A stretch of 27,715 bases of DNA. Source: Strigamia acuminata (taxonomy: Eukaryota > Arthropoda > Chilopoda > Geophilomorpha > Linotaeniidae). A program made the position numbers and the translations under genes. The stretch lies in contig CASHSZ010000039.1 of the NCBI GenBank assembly GCA_949358305.1, positions 1 to 27,715 of the forward strand, written 5' to 3'. Under the pieces are notes generated by a model, which saw only the letters and a list, made by a program, of their open reading frames with translations, made no database searches and had not been told where the DNA came from. Shown piece after piece: positions 239 to 27,715 of this stretch; within the stretch, counting starts at the first letter, position 1; each line of letters begins with the position of its first letter.

Positions 239-271
<33 letters not shown>

Positions 272-1578: not shown

Positions 1579-1624
1579 TTTTTCATTTTTTATTGTATTT
1601 TGTTCGTTTGTGGTTTATAATTTA

Positions 1625-1672: not shown

Positions 1673-1745
1673 TGATCGCAAAAAAAAAAAAAATTTAATT
1701 CGAATGAATCTATCGGTGTTAAAAACGACACGACCGGTTTGTTAG

Positions 1746-5529: not shown

Positions 5530-5560
<31 letters not shown>

Positions 5561-5667
5561 TTTTTTAAGCCATCCTCGCGGACGTTCCTTACTGTTTCTT
5601 CGCTTCGCGGGCGCCCAGTTGATGGGACCGGGACGTCCGATGCCGATGTGAGTTAATTCGATTCAAC

Positions 5668-5698
<31 letters not shown>

Positions 5699-7860: not shown

Positions 7861-8678
7861 AAGTCTAATAATGAAACGGCTCTGTCTGTCCGTCTTCGAC
7901 GTCCGGTCACGTGACCTGTATGTAATGTTTCTACTTCCGGTACTTCCGGTTTGTGTAATATCCCAAAAAAATGAATTAAAAAATTAATCGGACGATTGGA
8001 AAGTAGACTTTTCTGGTGCAGTTTTTGGTCTATTTTCCAATTATAAATATGAAATTGGCATTAAATATAGTTAAAAAGAAGAAAATGCTAAATTACGGCG
8101 AAATGTAATGGAAAACAGCGCCACTCGGCGGATCCCGTAAGCTATAATGGAGGCAGAAATCTTCGTCGCAAACTGAAAAATATTGTTTTCTATCTCGAAA
8201 TGAGGTTTATAAATTTTGAAATCAGTCTCATTCGACTGGAAATCCAAATCTGCACCTGCCTGTATCTTTTATTTTTCAATTTGGTCAAGAAAAAGTACCG
8301 TTACGATCCACCGAAGTCGGCAACCGCGTGGCAAATTTGGTGGGAAATTTGAAAAAGACTGATTTTTAAAACTGAACAATTTTAATGATTAAATGAGGTT
8401 TCCTACGTGTAATTTGGCGCTGAAAACGATGGCGTCATTAGTTTTTGGATCAAATATAGTTACAAAGGCGAAAAAAGCAATTTACGGCAAAATTTAAGTA
8501 AACCAGAGCGCCATCTGACGGAAGCCGTGACCGAAACGTAATGTAATGTACTTCGTAATGAAAATTGGACAAATGGAAGTGAAATCTGAAAAAAAGGGGT
8601 ATCACGTTGAGATTCTCACTATTTGTTCATTTTTTCGTTTATTTTTTATTTTTTTATTTGTTTTCTTTCCTTTTCCAG
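7861..8678. other. AT-rich region with degenerate internal direct repeat
   Basis: The segment 8061-8132 (AAATATAGTTA...TTACGGC...AGCGCCACTCGGCGGA) recurs in diverged form at 8450-8522 (AAATATAGTTA...TTACGGC...AGCGCCATCTGACGGA), about 390 bp apart. The region starts with a CTGTCTGTCCGTC tract and a CGTCCGGTCACGTGAC patch that resembles 13188-13202. It is probably a decayed mobile element, of no recognised class. The T-rich end is the intron before the gene C exon. Confidence 0.45.
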
Positions 8679-8960
8679 TCGTCCGCCGCTTCCATCCCGC
8701 GTGCGCCGACGGGCAGGTTGAAGACGGTGGATCTTATAGTCCAAAGAGCGACGAAGGAGGAGGAACGAAAGAATGAAGGCAACAGAAACGTCCCCATGAG
8801 AGTCGAGATGCTTCCAGATGGAGACGTTCTTTTGTCGCATTCAGTGGTGAGCGCGTTAGTCCATGTGGGTGTGGTAAGAGTCACATCAGAAAAAGACGAA
8901 GGAGACGGCGACGAGTCTCAGAAAGAGAATCGAGAGGCTGGCAAAGAAGACGCGGGATAA
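8679..8960 (+). CDS. Gene C: terminal exon of an unrecognised acidic-tailed protein
   Basis: A strong acceptor (TTTCCTTTTCCAG, ending 8678) is followed by 93 open codons to TAA at 8958-8960, which overlaps AATAAA at 8959-8964. The frame reads SSAASIPRAPTGRLKTVDLI, then a charged helix-like stretch (ATKEEERKNEG), then VPMRVEMLPDGDVLLSHSVV, and ends in an acidic E/D/K-rich tail. Upstream exons were not located, so this is a partial gene. A donor-like GTGAGCG at 8847 could instead end the coding part inside the exon. It is convergent with the zinc-binding gene on the other strand. The product is not recognised. Confidence 0.4.
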   Translation, partial: SSAASIPRAPTGRLKTVDLIVQRATKEEERKNEGNRNVPMRVEMLPDGDVLLSHSVVSALVHVGVVRVTSEKDEGDGDESQKENREAGKEDAG

Positions 8961-9163
8961 TAAAAAATTGACCGTGTATTTGTAATAATGATAACAATAA
9001 CAATGATTAATGTGGATTTTTTTTTGTTTGTTTTCTTTTTTATTAAAAAAAAAAAAAAAAATTAAATAAATAGATAAATAATAAAAAGTAAAGAACAAAT
9101 AAAAGCAAATGAAGAAGAGTTGGACAGTGCAAATTATGGGGAAAAAATAAAATTAAATAAAAA

Positions 9164-9712
9164 CTAATGTCCATTGACGCCACCTCCATCGTTTCCGGCG
9201 GGCGCTTGGTAATCGTGTGCCTCCGCCCAATGAGTGACGAGATCCCCGGGAGAGGGCGTCGCCGCACAAAACGGACAGCGTCGCCCGTTGAGTCGGTGCA
9301 CTCGTTTCAACGCCTAAGAAGAAAGGGGAAAAAATAAAAATACGAATTAGTTAACTAGTGTGTGAGTGAAGAGGATAATCGGACACTCACCGATGCCAGA
9401 CAGACGAGCTCGCGCGAGAAATTTTTCACGTCCTTGTGGATGTTGTGTCGCTGTCGCTGATGGCGAAAGACGTCGACGCAGAAGAATCCGTTCGGTCCTG
9501 AGGCACATGGGGCGGGGGAGAAGAAGAAGAAGAAAAAAATTAAAATAAAATTAAAAAATATTTATGTATATAAAATAAATAAAAGATATAGAACAAAAGA
9601 TATAAAATAATAAGTAAATAAATAACCGTTTCTTACTATCGGGGTGTTTATCATCGCATAGAGCGCAGGAGTATGACCTGCCGCCACCCTCCTCTTGTGG
9701 TGCTTCCGCCAT
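9164..9712 (-). CDS. Small zinc-binding (CxxC / C2H2-like) protein, three exons
   Basis: - strand exons are 9712-9637 (76 nt), 9497-9391 (107 nt) and 9313-9164 (150 nt), joined with consistent phases (1, then 0) by introns with GTAAG and GTGAGT donors and CTCAG and CTTAG acceptors. The product is 110 aa and complete. It begins MAEAPQEEGGG, then has CALC (residues 16-19), a His/Arg-rich segment RHQRQRHNIH, and a C-terminal CPFC followed by LVTHWAEAH, which together form a C2H2 zinc finger with spacing C-x2-C-x12-H-x4-H. A Gly-rich tail ends the protein. The start is the first Met in the exon. AATAAA on the - strand is at 9044-9039. The gene is probably nuclear or cytosolic with metal-dependent folding. 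No named family was recognised. Confidence 0.7.
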
Positions 9713-9754
9713 TTTCCTTTTGTTTGTGAGACGAGTAAACAACTGAAAGTAAAT

Positions 9755-9756
<2 letters not shown>

Positions 9757-9805
<49 letters not shown>
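9757..9805. repeat. (GA)n microsatellite
   Basis: About 24 GA units lie just upstream of the 5' end of the - strand zinc-binding gene. A GAGA-type element so close to a start site could affect promoter chromatin, but this is inference. Confidence 0.95.
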
Positions 9806-9810
<5 letters not shown>

Positions 9811-10459
9811 TGATTGTGGTCGTGGGCGTGGTCCATTGACCGAGAAATCACACAAAGCATCAAACTTACTTACCAACGAACACGAGGTGGTAGTGAGGAT
9901 CAGACGGAAGATGAAACGCGCGCGTTTGATATAAGCTGCCGAACCAAAGTGTGTGTATGTCGTGAGCGGCTGATGTGACATCTGGTGGCAGTCCGAGAAC
10001 GATTTAAGTTTGAACTATGGAGCGTTGGCGAATGAACGGGTCTCTCTCGTTGGCAATCCTCGTTGTTCCGACGAATCCTGCTATCGCCGTCTTTGTGGTC
10101 CTCGTCACGGTCGTCGTTTTTATTTAACTCGAAACGAACGTTAATACTAAGTTTCCAATGTGCGTAGACGCGCGTGATTCGCGCGTTTTCCACATGTGGT
10201 GCCCCCGTCACGCGTGAATACAAAACGTCGACCCAATAAATTCCGAAACTGGGCTAATCTTGTTTTATTCGCCCATGTGCGCTTACCCATATATTTTGTT
10301 TTTCAGTTTGTGGAAAAGTTCATTGCCTGTGGTTTTCGGCGCGTACATGGCAAACGCGGGAAAATTTGCGGTGGTAGCGCGCTTTGGTGGCAATAAAAAA
10401 AAAAAACACCATAATGTTAAAAATGGGAATCCCGTCGGGTTTTTTTACGAAACATCTTG
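9806..10459. other. Intergenic CpG-containing region
   Basis: The upstream flank of the zinc-binding gene, followed by sequence with no exon chain. A 107-codon - strand frame (9900-10223) is rich in Arg, His, Asp and Ser, has no recognisable domain, and lacks flanking splice support. Confidence 0.4.
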
Positions 10460-11385
10460 CAGAAGCTTATTTTTGAACAAATTGTTTGGGGCTGCCGGTG
10501 CTTGTCGGCGCCAGCTGCCCCGTATTCTGTACAGAGAGAGACGTTCAAAAGAACATCTATTAACTCATACAGTAGAAAAACCACAGAAGTGAGTAAAACA
10601 ATCGCGGAAAACCAAAACCCTCCGGATTTCCGCGAGGGCCAGGATTGGTCTGGATTACTGGAATCACTCTCGAAGCCCGTCGAATGCGTTGATGGAGATT
10701 CGCACCAACTACGACAGCGCGTGGCAACTGGAAGGTGAAATTAAAATATAAAACGGCGGATATTTTACAAAACTTTTGTATCGGTCGTTTGGTACAAAGA
10801 TAATGTGATTAACTATTGGAATACGAACCGCGAAACCGATACCACGATCCGAAATTTAAACTTTAATCGTCCACCCATTGTCGATCGCCAGACATCTATA
10901 AGCGATAGGTGCGCCCTTTTCATTTTCGTGTCGCTCCCCCAGAGTTTGTGGGTCTAACCTGACCTAATCTTACCCAATTCGAATCTGAATTTGAATCTAA
11001 ATTTTGCGTTTTCTTTATCGTTTCAACATTATACGAGTTTCCTTTTGTTAAACAATTATGTTTTGAATTTTCGTAAGTGGTTGGTTAATTGCGTCCCGGT
11101 GCGTTGCCATAAACACAAAGCACTCTGCGGGCATTTATCCACGTTGACGGACATTATTATCGACGCCCGCGTCGAAAGACCGTGTCGAGCTCATCGGCAT
11201 CGCATCACACGCAATATCGCGCGCGCGAACGCGCTTGTGCGAGTATGTACGTCGCCGGGGACTCGGCTTCGCGGTCGCGCATCGACGTCGAAACATGCCG
11301 TATCGGTGTGCGGATGTTTTCTATGCCCACAACGAACCGAATCTGTCGGACGCGAGTAGAATGCACGTCAAGAGGTTTAGACTAA
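10460..11385. repeat. Cluster repeat, copy 4 (long form)
   Basis: It starts with AGCTTATTTTTGAACAA and GCCAGCTGCCCCG, then CGGATTTCCGCGAGGGC as in copy 1 (about 4445). A body follows, then the AT-rich segment (10740-10870) and the B segment (about 10887-11385) with GTTGCCATAAACAC and ATTGCGTCCCGGTGCG. It lacks the GACCGGCCCGAAGGCC core. Confidence 0.6.
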
Positions 11386-11985
11386 CGGATGAGTGTCGAT
11401 GTGGGAGCTTATTTTTGGGACGAGTCGTCGGGGTTGCCGCCGCCGTCGCCGCTCAACGACACCATTTGCCCCTATTCTCGTCGGGACGGGCGCGTTCTAT
11501 TTCCGATTTATTTGTTTCTTCATTTATTTATTATTTTGACCGGCCCGAAGGCCAGTCTGAGACCGAGAGAGCGAGGAAGGCGTTCAAGAAGGACGCCTAC
11601 AGCCACTGGAAGCGAGAACCCGGCTACCACGCCGCCCGGCGGGTACTGAGCCGCTCGACCGAGCGGCGGGCCCGAGTTCCGCTGGCGATCTGAAAGTGTT
11701 GGCAAAACCCATCGAACGTGTTGAGAAAGACTCCCATCGACTGGGACGGCGCGAGACCCCCGGAAGATGACAATAAAATACAAAACAACGGATTCCCTAC
11801 AAATTTTTTTTCCCGGTAAATTACGACGAAGATAATCTAATTAACGGTTAAAGTACGAACCGCAGAGTCGGTGCCACGACCGGAGAATTAAAAATTTAAT
11901 CGTCTTTCTTTTTCGGGTGATATTTTTTACTCCGTACCGATCGCCACGTCAGACACGAGTAGGATGCACGCGACCGCGCGCACGT
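11386..11985. repeat. Cluster repeat, copy 5 (start of tandem array)
   Basis: Tandem unit with GGGAGCTTATTTTTGGGACG, (TTTA)n, core GACCGGCCCGAAGGCC at 11538, the near-palindrome CCGCTCGACCGAGCGG (about 11651), GGCAAAACCCATCGAACGTG (about 11700) and CGGAGAATTAAAAATTTAAT (11881). The next unit repeats the same order with high identity. Confidence 0.8.
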
Positions 11986-12579
11986 ATAAACGAACGAACG
12001 AACGAACGGATGCCGACGCGGAAACTTATTTTCGGGGCGAGTCGTCAAGGCTGCCGCTGCCGCCGCCGTCGCTCAACGACCCCAACCGCATCTATTCGTC
12101 GGGACGGATACGTTCCATTTTCGGACTTATTTATTTATTTATTTATTTATTATTTTGACCGGCCCGAAGGCCAGTCTGAGACCGTGGCGAAGCAAGGGTG
12201 TTTTTATATCGGATACCGCGCCGCTCGGCGGGTACTGTGCGCCGCTCGACCGAGCGGCGGGCCCGAGTCCCGAGTTCGATCTGAAAGTGTTGGCAAAACC
12301 CATCGAACGTGTTCGGGAAGACTCCCGTCCACAACGACGGCGCGAGACCCCCGGAAGATGAAAATAAAATACGAAACGGCTCATTTTCTATAAAATTTTT
12401 ATTCCAACGAATTACGACGAAGATAACCTAATTATCGGTTAAAGCACGGACCGCAAAGTCGGTGCCACGACCGGAGAATTAAAATTTTAATCGTCTTTCC
12501 TTTTTCGGGTGATTTTTTTTTACTCCGTACCGATCGCCACGTCAGACACGAGTAGGATGCACGCGACCGCGCGCACGTT
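11986..12579. repeat. Cluster repeat, copy 6 (tandem array)
   Basis: A near copy of the preceding unit: CGGAGAATTA recurs at 11881 and 12472 (591 bp apart) and GGATGCCGACGCGGAAACTT at 12008 and 12601. An (AACG)n run marks the unit joint. The core GACCGGCCCGAAGGCC is at 12157. Confidence 0.8.
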
Positions 12580-12706
12580 TAAACGAACGAACGAACGAAC
12601 GGATGCCGACGCGGAAACTTATTTTCGGGGCGAGTCGTCGGGGCTGTCGTTGCTGCCGCCACCGCCGCCGCTCAGCGACCCCAGTTGCCCCAATTTTACG
12701 GCCAAT

Positions 12707-12745
<39 letters not shown>

Positions 12746-13145
12746 TTTTGACCGGCCCGAAGGCCAGTCTGAGAGACACGGGATGAACGCGCACAAATGC
12801 CACATCATCGACCGGACGCTGAAGCATCGACCGTTTACTCGGTCGAGGAAATTTTAAACTATATAACCATCGACCGGTCAGTTGGGGAGGCGCGCCCGGT
12901 ACTATACGAGACGGTCCGCCCCGATCTGAAAACGCTCGCCGAACCCGCAGAACGCGTTCGGTGAGACTCGCGTCGACTACGACGACGCGAGACTCCCGGA
13001 AAGTGAAAATAAAATACGAAACGATTGATTTTCTGTAAAAATTTTATTATGACGAGTTGCGACGAAGATAACCTAATTAATGACTGGAGCACACGGCGCG
13101 AAATTAATCCTATGATCGGGAAATGCATTTATATTTTTTAAAGAC
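12580..13145. repeat. Cluster repeat, copy 7 (end of tandem array)
   Basis: It begins with the (AACG)n joint and GGATGCCGACGCGGAAACTT (12601). It carries a long (TTTA)n tract (12706-12747) and the core GACCGGCCCGAAGGCC at 12750, then a diverged body. It ends with AAATGCATTTATATTTTTTAA (about 13121), matching the end of copy 3. Confidence 0.75.
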
Positions 13146-13567
13146 TCTGGTTTGACCAGGCACGAACGTTTATGTACGAGATCCAACGTCCGATCACGTG
13201 ACATGTGATATATTTCGCAAAACCACCACGCCGTTTCTCCAAATTAGGTTTTCACGAAACTCGATTCTATTTTTACCCACGTGGTCACGTGCCCTTCCCG
13301 ATATCAAAATCGCGTTTTAGCGAAACCCGAAGTTTCGTTTTTAATCGGCTGTTTTTGTTGGACACGAAGAAGCGTTATAGCGCGATCGCGCTAAGCGAGA
13401 TTTGTAAAGTTGAGGATGCGTTACAACGCGTTTTCAAAAAACGGTTTGCCAAGAATGATAAAACACGCGCGATCGTGCGGATTGTACGAATAGGTGAAAT
13501 CCGCAGAATCCGCCACGAGACTGCGAACAGGGGGTCAAGGTATAGGCCGCCGTAATGTTAAATATAG
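13146..13567. other. CpG-rich region with an unrecognised basic ORF
   Basis: A 116-codon + strand frame (13205-13555) is Arg/Lys/Phe-rich with many CGCG steps. It has no recognised domain and no splice partners. The CGTCCGATCACGTGAC patch near 13190 resembles 7900-7915. This is the last CpG-rich DNA before the composition changes. Confidence 0.35.
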
Positions 13568-13804
13568 GGTCCCTTTCGCACTCCGCGAAATCCGCATGCG
13601 CGCCATAGGGTTAAATGTCAGGAAGTGGGACATTGGGGAAGGGAATGCAAAGTTCCGAAACGAGATTGGGAATGCACGTTGTGTGGGGGCAAAGGGCACA
13701 CCAACTACAGATGTGCAAACAATGAAGGGGCATTTAATGACTCGAGAGAGGATAATCAAGTCGAGCCAGCCCCAGAAAAACCCCAACAGGCTCCGTTAAA
13801 ATAG
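13568..13804 (+). pseudogene. Gag nucleocapsid remnant with CCHC zinc knuckle
   Basis: The frame is open from 13568 to TAG at 13802-13804. It holds an incomplete first knuckle (the first Cys is missing; CQEVGHWGREC keeps C-x4-H-x4-C) and a perfect second knuckle, CTLCGGKGHTNYRC, with spacing C-x2-C-x4-H-x4-C. This is the usual nucleic-acid-binding end of retroelement Gag. Capsid sequence upstream is absent. The stop is preceded by TTAAAA, and a -1 slip on the last AAA would enter the frame of the following ORF. Confidence 0.7.
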
Positions 13805-13812
13805 AAGGGCAG

Positions 13813-15480
13813 ATGGGACAAGGACCAAGTCCCATCACAGCCCAAATCGTGGTAAAAACGGGTCTAGAGGATTTTGAGAGTTATGGAGTAGAGAAATTGG
13901 AAGATGATGACAGTTTGCAACCAGAGGAATGGCAACAGATTTTTGAGACTTTTGGTTCATCCATAGGGACATTGGTACAGGAGGGGGAAACTGAGATGAA
14001 CAGAAGGGAAAACACGCCGAATTTACAGGACATTCCCCGCCATCTCGACCTCTGTAAAATGGAAAAGGGAGAAGACACGCCTAATGAAGGGGACATTCTC
14101 ATTCACTGTGATCTCTATGAGGGGGAATTATTGGAAGCAGAAGTTAACTATTATTCTGAGGTTGTAGATGTCAAGGTGGAAGATTCAGTATTGGGAATAA
14201 GTGACACGCCAAAGGGTACACAGGTCACCGACCTCTCAGCACAATGGGTCGACCAGCAGATACAGGACGGAGAATTTGAGCGCACTGTTAATTACGATCA
14301 CATAGTAGACACAACGCAATGGGTTAAGCAGTGGCCATATTTTCTGTATATGTTTTTCCTGTATAGTGTAGTATTTGCAGTGGTGATTGCTGAACTTTCC
14401 GCAGGATTTTTGGTCAGGGTGGGATCCAAGGTAGGACTCACAGCCAGAAATCTCTGTTTAGTATGGTTTTATTCACTCCAGGGCCTAGTGATGCAAGGGA
14501 CAAGATTTTTGTCAGCAGCTGGGAAAATGAGGGAATTAGGGAAGTCACAAGTCAACCATTGGAATACATTGGGAACTAGATTTTGGTTCAAATTAAGGTT
14601 TTTAGTCGTAAGGGTAGGGCGACCTTTGGTGCATTTCGCAATTGTTAGTCGGAAGGTATCAAGGAAGTTCTATAAAAGGGTGGCTCAGATATTGGGATCC
14701 CTAAGCACAGGAAGTGCAACGACATTGAGGCTTTTAGTCGTAAGAGTTGGACGAGCTTTGGTGCATTTCGCAATTGTAAGTCGGAAGGTATCAGGGAAGT
14801 TCTATAAAAGGGTGGCTCAGATATTGGGATCCCTAAGCACAGGAAGTGCAACGACTTTAAAGTTTTTGGTCAAAAGAATGGGACAAACTTGGAGGCATTT
14901 CGCAATTGTAAGTCGGAAGATGTCAAGGAGGTTCTATAAAAGGGTGGGACGAACTATGGTGCATTTCGCAATTGTAAGTCGGAAGGTGTCAAGGGGGTTC
15001 TACAATAGGTGGGCTAGATTTTGGTCCAAGTTCAGAAACAGTGAGAGGATTAGATTTTGGTCCAAGCTCAAAAACAAGAAGAGGGCTAGATTTTGGTCCA
15101 AGTTCAAAAACAGTGGGAGGACTAGATTTTGGTCCGGGTTCAAGAAAATAGGGAGAACTATGGTGTGTTTCACTATGAATAGCTGGGAGACATCAAAAGG
15201 GTTCTACAATAGGATTGGAATAACAGAATTAAATAGAGCATTAGTTAAGGATCTGGTGACAAAAGATCCAGATGAATTTGCAATGAACATTTCTGATCTA
15301 GGGTGTACTAACATGATGGTACATCACTTCCAGATCTATTCAGAAAGGATACGGTATTTGACCGGGGAGAAGCACAACAAGTGGGAATTCCTCACTTGGC
15401 GTGGAATTTTGGATTTTTGGTTGTTTTCACAACATCATGGTTCGAATTTTCCCATTACTGGGGAGATCAATTTTGCATAA
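13813..15480 (+). CDS. Unknown 555-aa protein with membrane segment and two tandem repeat families
   Basis: A long intact ORF in the element, in the -1 frame relative to the Gag end; its frame is already open from 13756. Residues 1-170 are acidic, with a weak duplicated ENTPN / EDTPN motif (67-71 and 87-91). A hydrophobic segment at 174-201 is a likely transmembrane helix and 214-228 is a second weaker one. From 262 the protein is strongly basic: 44-residue repeats start at 262, 306 and 350 (core LVHFAIVSRKVS-KFYKR), a shortened copy follows, then four 12-residue repeats (core RFWSKFKNSGR) span 401-448. The C-terminal 100 residues are non-repetitive. I recognise no homologue, and no polymerase, protease or integrase motif. 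It occupies the place where pol or env would be expected. Function unknown; a membrane-anchored accessory or envelope-position protein is only a guess. Confidence 0.75.
   Translation: MGQGPSPITAQIVVKTGLEDFESYGVEKLEDDDSLQPEEWQQIFETFGSSIGTLVQEGETEMNRRENTPNLQDIPRHLDLCKMEKGEDTPNEGDILIHCDLYEGELLEAEVNYYSEVVDVKVEDSVLGISDTPKGTQVTDLSAQWVDQQIQDGEFERTVNYDHIVDTTQWVKQWPYFLYMFFLYSVVFAVVIAELSAGFLVRVGSKVGLTARNLCLVWFYSLQGLVMQGTRFLSAAGKMRELGKSQVNHWNTLGTRFWFKLRFLVVRVGRPLVHFAIVSRKVSRKFYKRVAQILGSLSTGSATTLRLLVVRVGRALVHFAIVSRKVSGKFYKRVAQILGSLSTGSATTLKFLVKRMGQTWRHFAIVSRKMSRRFYKRVGRTMVHFAIVSRKVSRGFYNRWARFWSKFRNSERIRFWSKLKNKKRARFWSKFKNSGRTRFWSGFKKIGRTMVCFTMNSWETSKGFYNRIGITELNRALVKDLVTKDPDEFAMNISDLGCTNMMVHHFQIYSERIRYLTGEKHNKWEFLTWRGILDFWLFSQHHGSNFPITGEINFA
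14596..14997 (+). repeat. 132-bp coding tandem repeat
   Basis: Units start at 14596, 14728 and 14860. The first two are nearly identical for the full 132 bp. The third diverges after its centre and is followed by a partial unit at about 14944 that again carries GTGCATTTCGCAATTGTAAG. All units keep the reading frame. Confidence 0.9.
15013..15156 (+). repeat. 36-bp coding tandem repeat, four units
   Basis: Units start at 15013, 15049, 15085 and 15121, each carrying AGATTTTGGTCC. Each encodes 12 residues with the RFWSKFK core, in frame within the 555-aa ORF. Confidence 0.9.
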
Positions 15481-15764
15481 AATGTTGATTTCATTTTGCA
15501 TGCTAAGGTTTTGAGTTTTTGGATATACTTTTGGCCTTAGGGTTAAAAGATTTTGGGTGGATTGAAATTTTTTGCATTTGGATGCAAACAGGAAGTTAGG
15601 ATTTTTGGATTTTGTGTTTTTGATTGGTTTTCTTATAATCCTAAATGTTGGATTGTGCCAATCATGACAGTTTTAATTATGACACTATGGCAGCAAGAGG
15701 AATGCTGGATCACATTTCATTCCAGGAATCAAGACAAAAGGGGGATTAACTTAAGGGATTAAAC
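15481..15764. other. Non-coding 3' region of the element
   Basis: T-rich sequence between the ORF stop and the polypurine tract. A 69-codon frame (15553-15762) has no support. There is nothing else recognisable. Confidence 0.5.
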
Positions 15765-15782
15765 GGAAAAAAAAAAAAGGGG
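15765..15782 (+). promoter_or_regulatory. Polypurine tract (second-strand primer site)
   Basis: A G-G-(A)12-GGGG run of pure purines directly precedes a TG, the arrangement seen at the 5' edge of a 3' LTR. Family knowledge says such tracts prime plus-strand DNA synthesis in LTR elements. Confidence 0.55.
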
Positions 15783-17456
15783 TGAGAAATGCAGACATGG
15801 TGACCTTAAGTGTTTTCTTGTTTTATTTTATTAATTAAATATATTGGGGCAGTTTTTGCAAATCTTTCTCTTGCCTTTTTCTCTCTCTTGAAAAGTAATA
15901 TTTTTGTATTGTATCACATGAAATTTTGAAGTTTTTTTTTCCCCTCTGTAAATATTTCGAGGTATTATTTTCACGTCATATTTTTTTGGTGAATTTTTTT
16001 TCCTCAAAGCAAATGAGTGGTGGTACTGTGTTTTAATTGTGTTTTGATTGTGTTTTGTCGCAGAATAATTTAGAGTGTGCAATGATTTTGTTGCAAAAGT
16101 TCCTTATGGAGATGATTTTCTCATTATAACATGTTGTGAAATTGTCTAATATTTAGAAGGATTTTTGTGTGTTCATTTTATCACAAATAGTGTTTTGTTG
16201 TAAAGATAAGTTTGATTGCAATTTTTTTTATGTATGGAATTTCTTGTGGAAATGATTTTCCCATTATGACATGTGTGAAATTATTGAAATTTGGAAAAGT
16301 GAGTTTTTTTTTTGTATATCAAGTTGTTGAGAATTTTATGATTCTTGCGTTGTATACCTTGTTGATTCATTACAAATTATTAGTGTTTTATTGCAATAGG
16401 GTATTGGCAGATGGTGAATTGTTAATTATTGTGGAGACATATGGTACGTGTCTAATATTGTTGATTGGTGGAATTGTTGTTATCAATTAGTGAGTGTATC
16501 GGATTCCAGGGGACTGGAATGATTATGTGTCTCAAATACTCTTGGGACGTAGAGTTTTTGCGACAGGGGAGATGTCGTATGGCAACTGTTGGCTGCTCAT
16601 ACATTTCTGTGGGGCAACTGTTGGCCATCCATACATCTCGATGGGACACTTCAGTGGGACACCTTGATTGGTCAGCCTCGTTTTGAACATTCAGATACCT
16701 GCTGTGACACCTGTGATGTGACTAAGTGATGAGTCACCAATTCCAGGAATACATGGAACCAATCGGCAAAAGGGATTAAGCAGAGGAGGAGCTTGGTGAG
16801 TCATCAACTCTCTGTTAAACATGGAAAATGGCATTGGTGATGACACTATTGGGATTAACAAGGGTGGGAACTAACATTCCTGCACTTGTGAAAGAGATAG
16901 TGGAAACACAGTGTGCAGAACCAGTTTTGCAGTTAGATGTTGTCTTGACCAGTTCACCCAGAGAGCAGTTCCAAGTAGCCCAGACCAAGCAGTAGAAGTT
17001 AGGCCACTTCAACCTGTTCCAAGCCAATTCTAAAGACCAACTAGAATTATGGATCCAGAGAAGACCTTCCTGAAACTTCAAGGAACTTTGGCTAAGAATC
17101 CAGAATGCCACATCTAAGTAGAACATTGGAACATTCAGGGAAAAGCAGTGTGAAGTGTGTGTCTTTGTGTGTGAAGCAGACAAAGGAAAATATCTGTGAG
17201 TACCAAGTTTGCCACCATTTGCAATTTTACTGTTTCTTGAATTGTTAGATTTAACCAATGTTAGCTTTGTGTATTTGTAGTCTAGTTAGTATGGTATTAT
17301 GTCCTGTAATTACATATACCATTTGGTAGTATTTGATAGTATTGTGTTAGGATTTATTGGTGTGAACCAGCCTTTTGTATAAAGGCAAATTAAATAAACT
17401 TTTGTTCTTTTCTATTTCAACTTTCTATGTGTTTGCCTTATTTGACTCTAATTTCC
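15783..17456 (+). repeat. Probable 3' LTR
   Basis: Starts TGAGAAATGCAGAC after the polypurine tract. A TATAAAG motif lies at 17370-17376, followed by AATAAA at 17391-17396, the TATA-then-poly(A) order typical of an LTR. A possible end is TCTAATTTCCA (to 17456), whose reverse complement TGGAAATTAGA resembles the start. No 5' LTR is present for comparison, so both the class and the right edge are tentative. Internal imperfect repeats lie at 16075-16355 (about 140-bp period) and 16578-16640 (GGCAACTGTTGGC twice). Confidence 0.4.
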
Positions 17457-17573
17457 ACCGGACCATAAGAAACCACTTTGCCACACAGGCGACTTTAGAA
17501 GGCTTGTGGTACAATTCCATAATAAGTCAACAACTATGGTTCTTTTAACGCTAATCATTACTGTTATTTTTAG

Positions 17574-19567
17574 GATTCTTTGCATTTGGTATCTGTCAAT
17601 GTAACTCGATCGACTGTAGCAACACATTTGGGAAATTGTGATCATTATAAATTTGGTAAGTACCGTTTGTCAAAAATAGACCATGCCCATTTTTTTTTAT
17701 TAATATAGACCGATTAATTAATAAAATTTTATTGGCTCACCATGCTGATCACCTGTTACCATTAGCACACAGAAATTCAGCATCATTGAGACTTGTCCAA
17801 GAACAGCTTTAGCTCTGGGCGGACACATATCGTGCACTCAGTGGTGTAGCTTAAAGCAAACTATTATTTGATCTGTGACACCCATGAAATATATTGATGT
17901 TGCGTTCAACACCCATATAAGTTACAAAAGTGTGACCGGTATGGTCTTCTCCATGACAGCCTGGGGAGTGTGGGGACTGATTACCATGGAGTGGGACGTA
18001 TACTCACGTAAATAAGACAAAGAACTCTACATTGTTGGGTTATTGGCCTTTAATTCGTTGTCTAGAGGTTGGACATTCTCGTCTAACTGCGTGTAGGCAG
18101 TGCTGTGAAGGCCTGTCACACCGGCAACTGACCCGTCATACACAGGGAGGGAGCCGCATGTATGACGTGGCTGGTCAAACATTACCATTCTGTCGTACTC
18201 ATCTGTACGGCCCATGACACCGCTCATGGAGGCTATAGTGGATGCATCATCGCACAACTGAGCGTCGCAATGGTGAATGGGGAGGACAGCAGAATCAGCA
18301 CAGAGTACGACGACTCTCGCTGGCTTCAGGACTTTACTTCACACGTCTGTCTCTGTTGAGACCCAGCACTCTTCTCTCTATTCCCCACACACTCAGCTCC
18401 CCCCTTCCATATACTGGGTTATACCACTCCGCGAGAAGGGATGACCTTAGGGCCATTGAGCGGTGTGTGGTATTGACGCTGGTCACCCTTGGGTGGCCAA
18501 GCGGTCACAAATGTTGTGTTAAAACTTGGAAGTTCCTAAGCATGTATTGAAAAAGATGTTATTGCAAGTATTTCTCTCAATGCTCTTAGTCTGTACTGTG
18601 TATGACCCGTCTTTCTTTATGAGATAAACAAATTTTTTGTTATTTTCCGTACAGGGAAAACAGAATATTCCGGCTTTTTTACTATGCATCCAGTTCCGTT
18701 TATTCCGTTTGGAGAACTTCCAATTTACGAATGCCCAAATGCTGTGTATAAAGTATGAATTAATGTTAGAATGCTGAAACTATGTAATCCCAATAACTAA
18801 GATCTTTTAATTTATTACTATTGCAAATTACTTTGTTATAGATATTTGTCAGTGATTATGATTCGTCTGATTATGAGAAATACGATCAAATAACAACTAT
18901 TGACGCTCCCGTTCACGGAACTACTACAAATGATATTCAGATGCGAGTTGTAAGAATCACAATATCATACTGCTAGTAATTTCGTAATTTGTTAATTATT
19001 TTATATACAGTTTCGTAGACTGAATACAAAAATAAATCCATGTACTGACAGCGCAGATCGCAAAAGATGCAGAAGAAACTGCTTAATAGAACAAATGCAG
19101 TGTGCTGAATTGTGCAGGTACAAAACAAATTGTCCAACAACTTACCATTTAAAATCTAAGTAAAATGTAATAATAGGTTACCTCTTCTTGAAGACATAAT
19201 TGACAATATTTTGCCTTGCAATTCAACAGCTGCAGCCAAAAAAAGTCTGAAATCGTTCATGCTCATATCCAATAACTTAACTAAATCGTGTCCTTGTTAT
19301 CCTCTTTGCGATGAAATTGACTTTAAAATAAATTCTTATGCACTAATTTAAAAGACCGATCAACCCTTTGCTATAGTGTTTCTAATGCTTAGCAACCTGG
19401 TGGAGCATATCATTGAAGTTAAAGTATACACATTGATTGCATTTATTTGTGATATTGGAAATAGTTTTGGGCTTGCTATGGGCATGTGTGTTTTGTCGTA
19501 TGTTAGGTATGCTCGTCGGGCCCTGTCTTGGGTAAAGGTAAACCATGAAAGTGCAAGAAGAAAATAA
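17574..19567 (+). pseudogene. DEG/ENaC channel, C-terminal part, with in-frame stop before TM2
   Basis: Exons are 17574-17655, 18655-18752, 18842-18949, 19011-19117 and 19177-19567. Phases agree and match the homologous exons of the next gene (1, 0, 0, 2). The first exon has GNCDHYKF, equal in position to CGNCLHYRF of the downstream gene. Ectodomain cysteines follow, then CPCYPLC, the family C-x-C-x3-C motif. TM2 is FICDIGNSFGLAMGMCVLS, where the filter G-x-S reads GMC. A TAA at 19349-19351 interrupts the same open frame between CPCYPLC and TM2; after it the frame stays open to TAA at 19565-19567. The exon with TM1 is not in the window: an LTR element sits just upstream. It is probably a decaying gene. 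Stop readthrough or a sequencing error cannot be excluded. Intact members form Na+-selective plasma-membrane channels. Confidence 0.75.
17874..18509. mobile_element. Possible solo LTR inside DEG/ENaC intron
   Basis: A more GC-rich 636-bp block begins TGTGACACCC and ends AAGCGGTCACA, giving matching TGTGAC / GTCACA termini. It contains an ATATAAG motif early on. Composition differs from the AT-rich intron around it. No clear target duplication flanks it, and no coding domain is visible, so the call is tentative. Confidence 0.3.
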
Positions 19568-20860
19568 AAACATGTTGTTTATGATAGTGAAGAACTTCAG
19601 TGAGCAAAGGTTTTTATTTTTAAATTTTAGTCATTGCTGCACAGCTTAGGTAGGACAAACCTGTAGTACTGTATATCAGATTAAATTGGAAGACTCATTT
19701 TTCGATTCCATTTGTAGTTTTGAATTTTTATGTCATTTTTCTGTCCTTATCTTGTTATTATATAAAGACATATGTCCACCTTTTGTTCTGTATAAAACAT
19801 TTACACATAATCAATTTAATAATACGCTGGACTAATTGCCTTTTGAAAATTTGACAAATATGTTATCAATTACGATTCTAGTAAAGGGTGTCCCAAAAAT
19901 AACGCAAGATATGAATTAACCGCCATTTGTGCAGTAAATTGTTGGCAACCCTGAAACAACAACGATTTGTGTGATGAATTCTGTCTGTTGGAGGACCCCA
20001 AGCTTAATTTGGCGAGGACGTGTTGCTTTTTATTGTTTTGGCAATAATGTTTGACTTAAACGCGAGGTGGATTAAGGCTTCAACCCTTAATCTACACACT
20101 TAGTCCAATGGAAATCTTCAAATACAATAAGAATTCGAAAATACTGTGAAAACTAGAGTGTTTCACAAGTGGGGGAACGCGCGTCAGTGCACAGAGTTGT
20201 GCAGATAATCCAACATCGAAGCGGCGCTTTTGGACATGAGATTGGATGACGCGCGGTCGGAAGTCTGGTTTTACCCTAAGTTCTTTATTTTGCACATGTA
20301 AACCCCATAAAATGTCGCAATTTCTTTGAATGCAAAGCATGTTTTATTTCGACCAAGAAGAAAATCATCAGATAAGTTAAAATTTCAATCTGCTTTCAAC
20401 AAAAATTACTTTATTAAAATTGCGAGAATTAAAAAATAATCCATAAACTACTATCTAGGTAATTCAACGCTTCACTTCATGTCTCAATTTATGAATTGAA
20501 CTTTTGTGTACAGTATGTTGAAAGTAGCTTAATTTCATTGCCTGCACGCAATAATGTATTTATTTTCACATTTTCTTGACTTGATGACTTGTTTGCGTTT
20601 ACGTTAATTAGTGTAAGTGTCAGCGTACAATTTACTTGAACTTGCAGTTTATCAGGTACAAAAAAAATGTATACATTCAAGCAAATTTTTTTCTGTATTT
20701 ACCTAATTATTAAAGTCAAAAGGCCGTCCAGTGACTAACGAAATATATTGTACACATTTGTCATCACTTAAGGGATTAAAAAACCAAAATTATTCGTCAG
20801 AATACAAAATGTGGCATTTTAATTAAAAGTCGGCTGAAAATTGTTCCTCAATTATCTCTC
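19568..20860. other. AT-rich intergenic region between the two DEG/ENaC loci
   Basis: AATAAA overlaps the end of the upstream gene (19562-19567). The region has no exon chain. It holds a likely transposon remnant (19886-20345) and otherwise AT-rich sequence leading to a TATA box at 20861. Confidence 0.5.
19886..20345 (-). mobile_element. Possible decayed mariner-superfamily transposon end
   Basis: The + strand begins GGGTGTCCCAAAAATAACGC, a form typical of terminal repeats in an IS630/Tc1/mariner-type group. On the - strand a short frame near 20340-20250 reads CDILWGLHVQNKE, which loosely resembles the LWG.. stretch near the end of those transposases. The other terminal repeat was not found, so the copy is truncated. 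Weak call. Confidence 0.35.
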
Positions 20861-21443: not shown

Positions 21444-21559
21444 CAAAAAGCGCCGTGACCCAGGGGAAGATTCATAATAATCTACTTGTAAATCAGTATC
21501 GTATGTACATTTTAAAAATCATAGAAAGTTATTGAACTGTAATTTAGGAAGTGTAAAAA

Positions 21560-24500
21560 ATGACATTCATTTGGATTGACACGAAGCTTCGTTCTAAAAT
21601 TTACAAAATAGTGAATAAATTCAGGACCGATAATCATCAACTACCAGATGATTACCAAATATTGGTTGATTCCATGCGTTCGATTTACGTCCGCGGATTG
21701 TGGTTTTGCGTAGTATTTGCTTGCTTACTCGGTAGCTGCTATCAAATAACAGACAGAGTTCTTTATTACGTGTCAGCTCCAACAGCCGTTGACATTCGAA
21801 TTGGTAGTTTGCAGCCGCTCAAATTTCCTACTATTGATGTCTGTTCAGGTGAAAGTGACTACGTACTTGATTTATTTAAGGAAAGCGTTGACCCATTAGC
21901 TTGTTATTTTCCACTTATAAAAATTTGGACTATGAACGAAGGCGACGAAGTTGACATTTTGAAAGTGTGGACTTATAAGAACGAATCTCTCATATTGGAT
22001 ACACTTGATGCAACAGACGTAAGTTGTTTGAATAATTTACTAATAGATTTAATACTTAATAAATTTTTCGGCTGTTTAGTAAATGTTTAGAAATAATAAA
22101 ATGATATTTTCACATTTTTTCGGTAGAATCTTCATTTAAAAGTTTTACGAAAATCGTTTTATAAATCTCTTTATGGTCAGTGCACCAGAGTGGAAATAAC
22201 CAGTTAAGTATACGAATTTAATGTTTGGATTAGGCAATATATAAACTAAACCACAAAATCGTTTTAAAATGTTTAATTCTGTAAAACAAAGTAATCAGTT
22301 TTATTCAATTTGAGTAAAATTTTAATTGATTTATGCAGGAAAATTAGAAGGGAAAATGTTAAAGGGTGAACTTTTAATGAAGTTACGTAAATCAAAGCGA
22401 TGCAATCCATCTATGCCAATGGTAATATTTTTTTTTGGATGTTATATGTTAAATTTATTACCGTAATTTGTCTAGGTTGCAGTACAGGACAAAGTTGATT
22501 TTGCATTGGTTCTTCCAGTATTAACTGGATATTTTTATGATTTGGAACTCATCTTCAAATCAGTAAGCAAATTTTCTAAGCATTAGTAATATTGGCATAC
22601 TAAAATACTAATTTAACATGGTTTGCAATAATGTTTTATTTTAATTTATGTATTTAAAACAGTACTATTTCAGTAGTACACGCAATCATCCGTGTGTTAC
22701 GAATGAAGAATTTACTAAATGTTACAAAAATTGTATGAAGAAGAGACTCTCTGAAGCTAAATGCAAGTCAGTTCAGTGCAGCAAATAATTCAATTAACAA
22801 ATATAAATTAATCTAAATCATTAATACGTCGTATTTGTTTAGGCTGCCCTTCGTAGATCAAAATATTAAACTACCAACTTGCAATAGTTCTGATCTTATA
22901 AATGCAGAAAATAGTTATTTCAATGCTTTCAAGACTATCCTGATTCCTAAAGTATACACCGTATGCAATTGCACGCCAACTTGCAGCCAATACACCTACG
23001 CTTTTCGGCCTTCTATCACTGCAGCAGATGATACTCGCATAAAAGTTTCACTGCATCAAATCGAAATGTCCATATCTCAGCGATTAGCCTACGATGGAAT
23101 CAGTTTATTAACGGATATTGGTGGAAACTTGAGTTTATTCATGGGTTTGTCAACGCTGTCAATTATTGATATTCTTCAACAAATCATCTTGTGGGTAAAC
23201 AGAGGAAAAAAGATGAAAAAACTGGATCGAATGGAAGCTAAGATTTTCAAAATATACACAGCCAGCATAAGAGAAGCTAAAGTAAGAAATGCTAAACTGG
23301 AACAATCAGCCAAAACACTGCATAATTCCAAGACCAATTACATGTGGTACATAACGCTATTTCTGTGTCTTGCTTTGGCAATATTTATGATTCAAGAACG
23401 TGCATCTTATTGTTTTAAACATCCTACTCGTAATATTGTGCAATTGGAGTTTTTACACAATATAACATTTCCAACAATAACTATTTGTGGAGAAACCTCA
23501 AAATTTATTCAACGTACGGAGAAACATATACGTAAACATAAGCTTAACATTACCAGATGTGAAGTGGAATTACTAGATTTATATTTGCCAGACAAGTTGA
23601 CTTTGGAAAAATTGTGGGAGAGTACACAGTTTGCTCCCACTGATACTGCAAATCAAGTCAAGGTAAACCTTATTGTTTACATCACCATAATGTAACGAAA
23701 AGAGAGAGATTTTATTTCTTCTACAGCGGCATGCCTATCCAAGACACGATTAGTGGCACCCAAGCACATACTACTCAAACCCAGGTGTAAGTGGTCACCT
23801 CTTTTCAGTATGTAATCAAAATTTTTATTTCAAGTTTTTCAGGTTTAGTGTAATAAATAAATAAATTTGCACATGAGGGTTGAAAAATACACTGAATTTA
23901 CTTTAATTCAAAAAAAAAAAACCAAAATAAAGAAATAAAAAAAAAAGTTATGACTGATTTCAGTTGTGTCACTTGCCTCAAATGAAAGTGGTCACTGCAC
24001 TACTTGACTCATGTGAAAGTGGTCAAGTCATTTTAATATCTTGTAACATCTCCTTTAGCATTAATTACTGCCTGAATACGGTCAGGCATGGTTTCTATTA
24101 GTTCTTGACAATATTCTGGAGTGATCGAGTCCCACACTTCGTCAAAACCTACGTGTGATGGGTTTGGAAAACTGAGCAAATGAGTTGACTTTATGTTTAG
24201 AATCATTTTCCAACATTAAATTAAGGGTTTCATGGACCAATATACTTATGAAAAAGTATTGGAGGGTTGTTATGCTTTCATTTGCAGATAATAAACTGCC
24301 TTTGACATGGATATTTCAGCAGGAAAATGATTCTAAACATAAAGTCAACTCATTTGCTCAGTTTTCCAAACCCATCACACGTAGGTTTTGACGAAGTGTG
24401 GGACTCGATCACTCCAGAATATTGTCAAGAACTAATAGAAACCTTGCCAGACCGTATTCAGGCAGTAATTAATGCTAAAGGAGATGTTACAAGATATTAA

Positions 24501-25154
24501 AATGACTTGACCACTTTCACATGAGTCAAGTAGTGCAGTGACCACTTTCATTTGAGGCAAGTGACACAACTGAAATCAGTCATAACTTTTTTGTTTATTT
24601 CTTTATTTTGGTTTTTTTTTTTTTGAATTAAAGTAAATTCAGTGTATTTTTCAACCCTCATGTGCAAATTTATTTATTTATTACACTAAACCTGAAAAAC
24701 TTGAAATAAACATTTTGATTACATACTGAAAAGAGGTGACCACTTACACCTGGGTTTGAGTAGTATAAGCGTTACAACCCCAGTAACAGTTTAACCCTTC
24801 CTCTTTTCCGGCATTGTTTATAAATTCAGAAGTGGAATGATGATCGAACAAAGTGGTTGATTTGTTCACCGCATCAAAGTAAAAGAAGTAATGGTATAAT
24901 AGGGGTAGATTGGGACGAGGGCGCTTTAAATTGTACATTGGATTGTTACGCTTCAGCATAAATAAACTACTTATAATTGCCTGTCACATCTCAGTACAAT
25001 ATTGCAGTTGATCGTTTATGAAGCAGTGGTTTTCTTGTCAAATATTGAATTAATGTGCTTTACTATTTGCAGCAAGTACTCCGAATTGAATTTTTACGAC
25101 CAAATCAATCATACGTACCAACTCCTTGCGGAAACTGTCTTCACTACAGATTTG
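21560..25154 (+). CDS. Fused two-module DEG/ENaC channel (partial, 3' end beyond window)
   Basis: Exons are 21560-22018, 22127-22202, 22339-22421, 22476-22562, 22663-22766, 22843-23662 and 25073-25154, all GT-AG with agreeing phases (570 codons so far). Module 1: TM1 about residues 46-64, post-TM1 motif FPTIDVC (89-95), YGQC (169-172), Cys-rich exon (236-269), CNCTPTC (311-317), and TM2 about 355-387 with LLTDIGGNLSLFMGLS, which contains the G-x-S filter (GLS). In the same exon a Lys-rich linker of about 48 residues leads to module 2: TM1 at 437-454 and FPTITIC (479-485), the family hallmark, then in the next exon CGNCLHYRF (562-570). Both linker ends are predicted cytosolic, so the topology fits. 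The usual His-Gly gating motif before TM1 reads RG in module 1 and HN in module 2. The family forms trimeric Na+ channels in the plasma membrane. The remaining exons should lie downstream, past the LTR element in the next intron. Confidence 0.82.
23771..24763. mobile_element. Foldback element with 441-bp inverted arms, Tc1-derived
   Basis: The left arm 23771-24211 and right arm 24322-24763 are inverted copies that differ at only a few positions plus one indel, separated by a 110-bp loop. Termini read CTACTCAAACCCAGG and its complement, each flanked by TA (23769-23770 and 24764-24765), the target duplication of Tc1/mariner elements. The right half plus loop carries the 3' half of a Tc1-type transposase gene; the left arm is the same DNA inverted. 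It sits in the intron between the last two visible exons of the fused channel gene. Non-autonomous. Confidence 0.92.
24215..24500 (+). pseudogene. Tc1-type transposase C-terminal fragment
   Basis: Read in more than one frame: a segment in the loop reads VVMLSFADNKLPLTWIFQQ, then ENDSKHKVNSF, corresponding to the FQQDND-PKH region around the second catalytic Asp of DD34E transposases, here with Glu in place of the first Asp of the NDxKH block context. After a frame break, DEVWDSITPEYCQELIETL and a C-terminal AVINAKGDVTRY end at TAA 24498-24500, typical of the family terminus. The catalytic Glu region is deleted. It is inactive. Confidence 0.75.
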
Positions 25155-25274
25155 GTAAATAATACAATTTTAAAAATACAATATTTTATCGATCAATAGT
25201 TGCGGCTCTTATTCAAAACTGCCATTTTTGTCAGCAATTACAATTTCGGTTTTTCGTTTGTTACATTTGTTTAA
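25155..25274. other. Intron start and inverted repeat before LTR
   Basis: GTAAAT donor at 25155, then AT-rich intron. An 11-bp inverted repeat, CGTTTGTTACA (25255-25265) and TGTAACAAACG (25275-25285), straddles the proposed LTR start. Confidence 0.45.
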
Positions 25275-25993
25275 TGTAACAAACGAAGTCTGAACGTCAC
25301 AAACGAAGTGTACGTTGTTGTGATCTCAAATGTTCCTTTTATTTGGAATATTTGGAGTATAAGAAATTAATAATTTAATCTATTTAATGTGTTAAATAAA
25401 TTGTTTTACAGTCCCTTTAATTATTTAGAAATAGTAGAAATTGGTAATTTAAGGAATCAATTTATTTTAGTGTTTTTAATGAATTATTTGTTAAAATAAT
25501 TACATATTTTTTGCTTGCTTGTGCAAATAAAATACTCATTTTATTTGCAATTGCCAAGTGCTTTCGGCTGTTAAACAGAAGCCGTTAGGACTGCCATGGC
25601 AACCTAACTGCCAAATTGGGGGGTTGCTATGGCCAGCTCCTAATTTGCACCGTTGCTGGGCACGAAGTGTGCCAGGTGCATGCCACGCATGCGCACTCGA
25701 CCGATTTTCCGGCCAAAGTTTGAGTAATAAATTCGTTTATTACTCACTCTTTGCCTCCTCCTCACACCGTTCACACCGACACAGCTTTGTTCAACCAAAC
25801 CAACACTGTTTTGTCCGTGATCCGTGAGTAATTGCAAAGTTTCATCCGATTTGCTTGATGCCAATCCACATCAAGTGACTCCTTCCCGGACGACGAAGTC
25901 GACGTGCAACGGACCGAGCAACCGTTGTTTCCGCCGCCGCCCGAAGATAAACGTACACACGCCATCGTAGACCGACGCCTGGAAGACGCCAAG

Positions 25994-26152
25994 CTGACGA
26001 GGGACGACGCGCGCCAAGCCGACGAAACCTCGACGCTAGCCACCGACGACGGTAATTCGATCAACATACGTTGAAGATCGACGCCAGCCAGCCGCCGAGT
26101 TGACGAGGGACGACGCGCGAAAGCCGACGAAACCTCGACGCTCGACCTGCCG
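25994..26152 (+). repeat. 106-bp direct repeat in the LTR
   Basis: TGACGAGGGACGACGCGCG occurs at 25995 and 26101, each followed by AAGCCGACGAAACCTCGACG. The block is strongly CpG-rich compared with the AT-rich flanks. A second short duplication, AAAAAACCCCTAGACAC, lies near 26607 and 26636. Confidence 0.85.
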
Positions 26153-26803
26153 ACGACGATAATTTGCCGAGAAGAAACGGACCTGAAAACCGAATTCGAC
26201 AGTGCGAACTACGCCAGTTGGACTCGTGAGTTTTCAACGGAGAATTTCCCGTTTCAACTCGAGGGTTCACACCTCGTATTCTCCACCCCGGCCTGGCTAT
26301 TTAGCTGGCCACGATTCTGGCTCCACAGCCGAATCACATCGCGAAATCTCACGATTCCGCGCCCGTTTGTGTGCATTTGCACCAATTTTCACGGCGATTC
26401 GTTGCCGCCATTTTCTCAACCTATTGTTTCCGCGCGCGCGAACAATTCCATTGTTCTCGCGCCTTTCTCTTCTTTCCTTGTTTAACTTTATCAATATTCA
26501 TTTAATTATTCATTTATCCCTTGTATTTATATTACTCCTTAATTTTAACGTTAATAAAACTGTTTATCCTTTTTTAAATTACTTGTTATTATTGCATTTG
26601 CTACCAAAAAACCCCTAGACACAAAAACCACAGCCAAAAAACCCCTAGACACCAACTTAACTGCCAAACCCGATAGAAGACCTTTTACGGCATTCAACTG
26701 CTTTCCACAGGTTGAATACCGGGACCTTTTGCATTGAATTAGATTAATATTCTGTGCAATTATTATTATCATATATTTTGGGAACATCCAGGAACGCAAC
26801 ACT

Positions 26804-26821
26804 TGGGGGCCCGTCCGGGAT
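26804..26821 (+). promoter_or_regulatory. Primer binding site, tRNA-Pro type
   Basis: TGGGGGCCCGTCCGGGAT differs at one position (C for T at position 8) from the well-known site complementary to the 3' end of tRNA-Pro used by gammaretroviruses. That change would still allow a G-U type pair or match a variant tRNA. It follows the LTR end by two bases. Confidence 0.85.
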
Positions 26822-26962
26822 TATCCCAATTTTTAGAATTTTTAGAATTTAAAGTAAGATTAAAAAATTAAAAAATCTTGTTTTTCCCCATTTTAGTATT
26901 TTTTACCTATTTTTCTAACTTTCCTATCATCTTTCTTCTCTTTTTGTAACATTCTTGCCATC

Positions 26963-27715
26963 ATGCCTAAGTTACATGATGAAGTCCCTTCGCCAATTGA
27001 GGGAAGGACGTATAGTCGTCCAATAGTCGGGTCTAACTGCCCACAAGGTGCCCAAACTCGGCGCAGTAGTTTTCCAAAGGAAGTAACGGCTAAACGCTCA
27101 GCCGAAACTCGATTGGAAATCGCCGAAGCCGAGATATCGGCTGAAATTTCACTTGATGCGAAAAAACGTTCATTTCAAAAATTCAAAAATGTTTCAACGG
27201 ATCGTGAAATGGATGCTGAAACAAAAAGGAGTATTGACAAAGTAAATGATCGTACTCAACCACGCACCTCGACTCCAAGACAAAGATATGAATTTCCTCA
27301 GCGGTCACCAGAGTTTGAAGCGCTCGTTGCCGAAGTTCTCCTCGTAGATCCAGACGCGGCCGAGAAAATTCGCCTAGCCACGATCAATTTTGAAAGCGAA
27401 CAATTTGTCGATGAAATGGATTATCGAATAGAGACATTAGCATTCGAAATGGAACTAACTCGTGACCGATTGAATTTATCACAAGCCAAACTCGTTTTAA
27501 ATAAACATTGTGCGGCCGAGGAAAATGCAAATGAAAGTGCCGAAATTGAAGAATTGGAAAGAACAAGCAGAGAGCTTGACGAAACTAAACAAGCTCTAGA
27601 CGAAGAAATTTGTAATAGAACTAAAGCCCGCGAATTGGAACTTCAAGAAATAGCCAATCTGCGACAAGTGCGTACAAAGAATTTATCCCACCGTGAGGAC
27701 GAATCCTTCACCTTA
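26963..27715 (+). CDS. First ORF of the LTR element (Gag position), partial, coiled-coil rich
   Basis: Open for 251 codons from the ATG at 26963 to the end of the window without a stop. An in-frame TAA at 26915-26917 and no other ATG between fix the start. The first 60 residues are Pro/Arg-rich. Residues about 40-90 and 140-250 are rich in Glu, Lys, Ala and Leu with heptad-like spacing, and predict long alpha-helical coiled coils. No zinc knuckle or major homology region is reached. Its position after the primer site argues for Gag. Long coiled coils at the N-terminus are unusual for many LTR elements though known in some retrovirus groups. Intact in what is seen, so the element could be young. 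Confidence 0.7.
   Translation, partial: MPKLHDEVPSPIEGRTYSRPIVGSNCPQGAQTRRSSFPKEVTAKRSAETRLEIAEAEISAEISLDAKKRSFQKFKNVSTDREMDAETKRSIDKVNDRTQPRTSTPRQRYEFPQRSPEFEALVAEVLLVDPDAAEKIRLATINFESEQFVDEMDYRIETLAFEMELTRDRLNLSQAKLVLNKHCAAEENANESAEIEELERTSRELDETKQALDEEICNRTKARELELQEIANLRQVRTKNLSHREDESFTL

Follow-up and report, generated by a model that had tools for sequence, protein, structure and literature searches.

Subunits of DEG/ENaC channels are usually separate proteins with two transmembrane segments, TM1 and TM2. A gene near the end of the 27,715-nt stretch of Strigamia acuminata DNA analyzed here (the window, on contig C50) was taken in a preliminary description to encode two such subunits as one polypeptide, and the question is whether the two channel modules really belong to a single gene product and, if so, how that product could form a pore. 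We consider the best explanation overall to be a natural concatemer that arose from a single fusion and then expanded, and we give this reading a probability of about 0.7; a pore shared by its modules is the preferred but less certain form of it. The step on which it builds, that the two-subunit polypeptide is translated as one intact chain, is very probable from the gene structures. The predicted chain would have about 800 residues and four helices, in the order TM1-ectodomain-TM2, a linker of 40–54 residues, and again TM1-ectodomain-TM2. Because a DEG/ENaC subunit has its N- and C-termini in the cytoplasm, connecting TM2 with the following TM1 through a linker leaves the topology unchanged. 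The product would be a naturally occurring concatemer of two subunits of a centipede DEG/ENaC channel resembling BRTNaC1, and the whole two-module gene would have been duplicated into hundreds of copies after the fusion.

Two modules in one reading frame

The central exon of the window gene, exon 6 (translated frame starting at 22844), encodes 273 residues with no stop in the translated frame and runs, as had been claimed, from TM2 of module 1 through the linker into a second TM1. None of 20,000 Markov-1 simulated stretches of matched length and composition gave such an open frame by chance. Scored against the PF00858 profile (curated cut-off 23.6 bits), the exon reached 56 bits (E = 4.7e-15 for the whole) and was found to carry two PF00858 stretches, each passing alone; the better one, at residues 163–227, lies on the TM1 side, and the other is read as the TM2 side. 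Exon 1 scored 35 bits (E = 1.1e-08). Exons 1–7 of the window gene have GT-AG borders, and their end phases (0,1,0,0,2,0,1) bear out the earlier view that they fit a single message, as does the agreement of exon 7 with its module 1 counterpart, exon 2, both of which end in phase 1 (Table 1).

Table 1. Features of the window gene and of the neighboring gene; positions without a contig name are those of the window.
Feature	Position	Strand	Remarks
Exon 1: start codon, N-terminus, module 1 TM1, ectodomain start	21560..22018	+	phase 0 end; GT donor; identical on C4
Exon 2: module 1, GQC segment	22127..22202	+	76 nt as in L032; AG/GT borders; phase 1 end
Exon 3: module 1	22339..22421	+	83 nt as in L032; phase 0 end
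Exon 4: module 1	22476..22562	+	87 nt as in L032; phase 0 end
Exon 5: module 1, cysteine-rich	22663..22766	+	phase 2 end
Exon 6: fused exon	22843..23662	+	one open frame, two PF00858 stretches; at least 204 full-span copies in genome
Exon 6 part: TM2 of module 1, DIGGNLSLFMGLS, after the cysteine-rich end	from about 23114	+	
Exon 6 part: linker	about 23186-23347	+	
Exon 6 part: TM1 of module 2	about 23348-23416	+	
Exon 6 part: FPTITIC	about 23468-23488	+	
Exon 7: second exon of module 2, GNC segment	25073..25154	+	82 nt as in L032; phase 1 end; identical on C4
Exon 8	C4:12005146-12005049	minus	script with imposed phases
Exon 9	C4:12004922-12004815	minus	script with imposed phases
Exon 10	C4:12004681-12004575	minus	script with imposed phases
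Exon 11	C4:12004511-12004130, then TAG	minus	script with imposed phases
Neighboring two-module gene, module 2 exons	about 17574-17660, 18655-18753, 18842-18950, 19011-19118, 19178-19567	+	order, similarity to L032

On C50 the gene is cut by the contig end, and the remainder of module 2 is absent from the window. Positions 21495–27715, the first seven exons included, are identical to chromosome C4, where the complete copy has 11 exons and encodes 802 amino acids in two modules; its exons 8–10 (98, 108, and 107 nt) equal their counterparts in L032 in length. L032 (C4:12045001-12055000, minus strand) is a complete sister gene of 11 exons and 805 residues, with borders placed by hand from GT-AG sites, and its end phases run 0,1,0,0,2 in module 1 and 0,1,0,0,2 again from the fused exon. 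The L032 protein scored 125.5 bits against PF00858, in three stretches.

Four more clusters yielded whole-gene models of 796–815 residues (L038, L034, L036, and L037). These came from a script requiring the phases of L032, which means that only their open frames and conserved residues, and not the phases, count as independent evidence. Six stretches were put through the script; no model resulted for L035, whose start exons lie outside the stretch given, and L031 gave a spurious second half. In an alignment of six proteins (A1), P88, C93, P466, and C471 are invariant, as are many cysteines, and the P-x-x-x-x-C segment after TM1 and the cysteine-rich ectodomain are both present, as in DEG/ENaC channels. 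DEG/ENaC chains have one module each, whereas all eight full-length proteins examined have two; by these sequence features each module is a member of DEG/ENaC and the chain is a new architecture.

Size and origin of the gene family

Two seed searches of the genome (237,517,015 bases) recovered at least 204 distinct fused exons spanning TM2 to TM1, or 203 when the C50/C4 duplicate is left out, a lower bound because only 141 of 1417 and 142 of 1459 candidates were scored. They are spread over eight contigs, with at least 100 on C1, 54 on C6, 18 on C3, 14 on C4, eight on C11, seven on C8, two on C9, and one on C50. The matched stretch is free of stops in 195 of the 204, and an in-frame stop is present in nine. 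These exons, together with five further locus models and two proteins of S. maritima, uphold the central proposal of the preliminary description, two DEG/ENaC subunits in one frame.

Gene order points the same way. The next match on the same strand within 25 kb is a last exon for at least 156 of the 204 fused exons (median distance 1.9 kb), which makes two modules per gene the rule, and at least 91 have the complete order of start exon, fused exon, and last exon. Among the matches listed, the next neighbor is another fused exon in seven cases and a start exon in one, and a downstream neighbor is absent for 40. No positive case of a three-module gene, with one fused exon following another and neither a last nor a start exon between them, was seen among the 204; seven candidates remain, six from lineages for which there was no last-exon query. 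One of these six, C1:6185342, has a PF00858 TM2 match in between, at C1:6183461-6183901; the seventh, C1:28574361, belongs to the L035 lineage, which was queried, and no last exon was found in the 19.5 kb that separate it from the following fused exon.

The genome also seems to contain single-module genes. To judge from its open frames, L070 looks like a normal gene of this kind, and many of 93 scored PF00858 matches resemble separate last exons. A separate probe search located TM1 fragments of second modules in a further 28 open frames (274–363 residues; counted by eye), which are not in the count of 204.

The search of a related genome for proteins with two ASC domains, as the preliminary description had proposed, was successful: S. 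maritima has full-length counterparts for two divergent lineages, T1JD34 (791 aa; 60% identity over 97% of the L032 protein) and T1ITL7 (805 aa; 36% identity over 96% of the L034 protein), both uncharacterized predicted proteins. Outside Strigamia, searches of at most 100 words each matched only one two-module protein, a mite model discussed below. Modules 1 and 2 of one chain share 24–28% identity. We built a tree from BRTNaC1, PDPNaC1, and the 16 modules that eight two-module proteins provide. All first modules formed one clade (99/97), the second modules formed another (100/100), and the branching inside the two clades agreed: L036; L034 with (L037, T1ITL7); and L038 with (window gene, (L032, T1JD34)). 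Two clades with mirror-image branching argue for one fusion before the expansion, the halves having stayed together since. From these sequences, the origin is a single event of tandem duplication with fusion that took place before the sampled Strigamia lineages split, in their ancestor. The placement of BRTNaC1 and PDPNaC1 was weak (75/48), and the position of the root is unsure because these single-module rows sit on long branches.

For 14 overlapping pairs of fused exons (some genes occur in several pairs), dN/dS was 0.30–0.93 over the exon, with 13 pairs at or below 0.71. Over the linker (40–54 codons) it was 0.41–2.46, above the whole-exon value in 13 of the 14 pairs and greater than 1 in four. 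The window gene and its nearest paralog gave the highest exon value, 0.93, and 2.46 over 54 linker codons. This pattern fits a fast-evolving, receptor-like family kept in frame, and not decaying copies.

Pore residues and assembly

Pore positions are given in ASIC numbering, in which the filter occupies 10'–12' (PMC5449180, in the part consulted). First modules have a G-x-S filter in all 50 loci read (of 60; L001 and L002 among them are the same gene), the search pattern itself having required G at 2', G or A at 10', and S, C, T, or A at 12'; GG occupies 2'–3' in 48 of the 50 and an acid 18' in 38. Second-module filters vary (GLS, GFS, GMS, GIS, GVS, GMC, ATS), and 2'–3' reads GN or AN in 11 of 11 second modules, nine of which were found with a pattern that required it, and in all of 17 short stretches on which no pattern was imposed. 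A reading of the GMC filter as the mark of a dead pore was dropped, since BRTNaC1 itself reads G-I-C.

Both modules could be read at 18' in 21 chains (19 tabulated, with L026 and L028 added by eye); for 12 of these, known from short stretches, modules that are chromosomal neighbors (at distances of up to 18 kb) were taken as a pair. The acid is in module 1 only in 11 chains, in module 2 only in five, in both in three, and in neither in two. A rule of exactly one acid per chain failed on the three chains with both, and our claim is therefore limited to at least one acid in 19 of the 21. Second modules have the acid in eight chains and R, H, Y, Q, or L in the other 13. The charge of E18' is essential for sodium selectivity in ASIC1a, and in ASIC1a concatemers one E18'Q among three subunits keeps the permeability order whereas two do not (PMC5449180, in the part consulted). 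The distribution of the acid would suit two unlike modules lining one pore; we take it as suggestive, because it concerns a single residue position and because two of the 21 chains lack the acid and eight carry it in module 2.

The chances are about equal for and against modules 1 and 2 lying next to each other in one trimeric pore whose third place is filled by a single-module subunit or by a module of another chain. Covalent linkage of this kind would hold a canonical module 1 (GG, G-x-S) and a diverged module 2 (GN or AN at 2'–3') together at a fixed 1:1 ratio, and the earlier suggestion that fusion forces subunit order or stoichiometry is plausible on this basis. Against a shared pore speaks the arithmetic: DEG/ENaC pores have three subunits, and chains that supply two modules each do not add up to three. 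The third module could be contributed by a single-module subunit, by a further chain whose other module stays outside the pore, or through the pairing of two pores; the former two sources taken jointly, against all else, are roughly an even bet.

Other explanations differ in what becomes of the second module. Three chains might instead make two linked trimeric pores, one of first and one of second modules. In that arrangement no module is left unused and the symmetry stays three-fold; linkers of 40–54 residues could reach from one pore to the next, and modules 1 and 2 each retain the full module exon set. However, in the 13 chains without an 18' acid in module 2 (the other eight have it), the second pore would be without the carboxylate ring needed in ASIC1a (PMC5449180, in the part consulted), and we think this double-barreled form unlikely. 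The chain could also be a polyprotein, cut in the linker to release two ordinary subunits in equal amounts, and the linker, which contains many lysines and arginines, is indeed under the weakest constraint of the parts compared. Yet no conserved cleavage motif was seen by eye in alignment A2, and by the established topology the linker is cytoplasmic, away from the convertases of the secretory pathway; processing of this sort is improbable. As for a double-barreled assembly, we know of no example in DEG/ENaC channels.

It is very improbable indeed that the gene is an artefact, whether a pseudogene, an assembly error, or two separate genes taken as one. Such doubts arise from the in-frame TAA in the neighboring gene and from C50 itself, which is short and unplaced and lacks colinearity with the compared C4 stretches in its left part. 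Against them, the window gene is identical and complete on chromosome C4, the great majority of fused exons match without a stop, and S. maritima provides full-length proteins for the two lineages tested. Conservation also makes it unlikely that a separate promoter, polyadenylation, or a frameshift lies between the modules. The natural concatemer is the preferred reading. A more far-reaching version, in which more than 200 genes encode covalently paired canonical and diverged subunits sharing a pore, as a receptor family of asymmetric sensory channels with fixed pairing, each passed on as a single gene, is offered tentatively and could well be wrong.

Closest relatives and surroundings of the gene

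The nearest solved relative of both modules is BRTNaC1, the Scolopendra broad-range thermal receptor 1 (PDB 8YMR, 8YMW, 8YMX). It aligns nearly end to end with module 1 (profile E = 1.6e-40) and with module 2 (E = 4.6e-9 for L032 and 1.1e-15 for L036), at 22–31% identity per Strigamia module, and has the same short ectodomain. It is, however, a 431-residue chain of one module, with three chains per entry, whereas the Strigamia chain has two modules. PDPNaC1, a proton-dissociation-permeated sodium channel of the Scolopendra antenna (PDB 9JF7), shares the module layout and matches module 1 with a profile E of 7.3e-36; according to the portion of PMC12714832 consulted, it is a single-module homotrimer of 421 residues, unlike the two-module Strigamia chain. 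Both channels occur in centipede antennae (PMC12714832 and PMC12804983, in the parts consulted), and a sensory role for the Strigamia proteins is a guess by analogy with them.

Engineered ASIC concatemers join C-terminus to N-terminus through a short linker, much as Strigamia does (PMC10329638 and PMC5449180, in the parts consulted). They are man-made; the constructs described there link three subunits, those of PMC10329638 with added linkers of 19 residues, whereas the Strigamia chain links two and is natural and inherited. The mite model mentioned above, LOC100901449 of Galendromus occidentalis (P0006, 1010 aa), also has two ASC-like halves, which are 57% identical to each other, compared with 24–28% for the Strigamia modules; it is a database model and a weak match, covering 9% of the query, and may be an independent concatemer or two tandem genes merged by annotation. 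The literature searched, including the consulted parts of PMC12714832, PMC12804983, PMC4244043, PMC9151784, and PMC5620054, yielded neither a natural DEG/ENaC concatemer nor such a family in Strigamia, and the S. maritima genome paper (PMC4244043) does not use the words pickpocket, ENaC, amiloride, or sodium channel in its main text. Searches of plasmids and phages gave no match, which is uninformative for an animal gene.

Joined DEG/ENaC subunits have so far been a laboratory tool, and no natural form was found in the literature searched. If the concatemer is real, evolution would have fixed subunit pairing in DEG/ENaC channels, as it has in four-domain sodium and calcium channels, and would have supplied ready-made proteins for asking how fixed pairing affects gating and selectivity. 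Soil centipedes would also have a great many candidate sensory channels in these genes, and the geophilomorph repertoire may then be among the largest DEG/ENaC repertoires known.

Upstream of the window gene lies the neighboring two-module gene (Table 1), which is 90% identical to L032 in DNA over 18417–19883. Its module 1 was not found on C50, where the one fused exon and one start exon found both belong to the 21560–25154 gene. Its last exon has an in-frame TAA at 19349–19351, where L032 reads CAA; the copy of this exon on C4 has two TAA in the match, like the window. The neighboring gene may be either a pseudogene or a nonsense allele. In the left part of C50 (window 1–17485), only short pieces match the C4 stretches compared, and the contig may be a rearranged haplotype or a misassembly.

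In the window gene, the intron between the fused exon and exon 7 holds a palindromic element (23768–24766), with arms at 23910–24211 and 24322–24623 (302 nt, 99% complementary) and further arms of 179 nt (94%). The intron after exon 7 contains an LTR retroelement, at about 25280–27715 and reaching the contig end (L033, L069); the coding exons and splice sites flanking it are intact. Positions 25316–26801 (1486 nt) are identical in L069, about 17 kb further along C4, so the insertion looks recent. At the other end of the window, a thymidine kinase frame lies at 1749–2318 (minus strand; PF00265, E = 1.2e-52), and the surrounding 1700–2400 has at least 40 copies in the genome, itself included, at 99–100% identity. 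Given so many near-identical copies, the thymidine kinase is probably cargo of a recently active mobile element.
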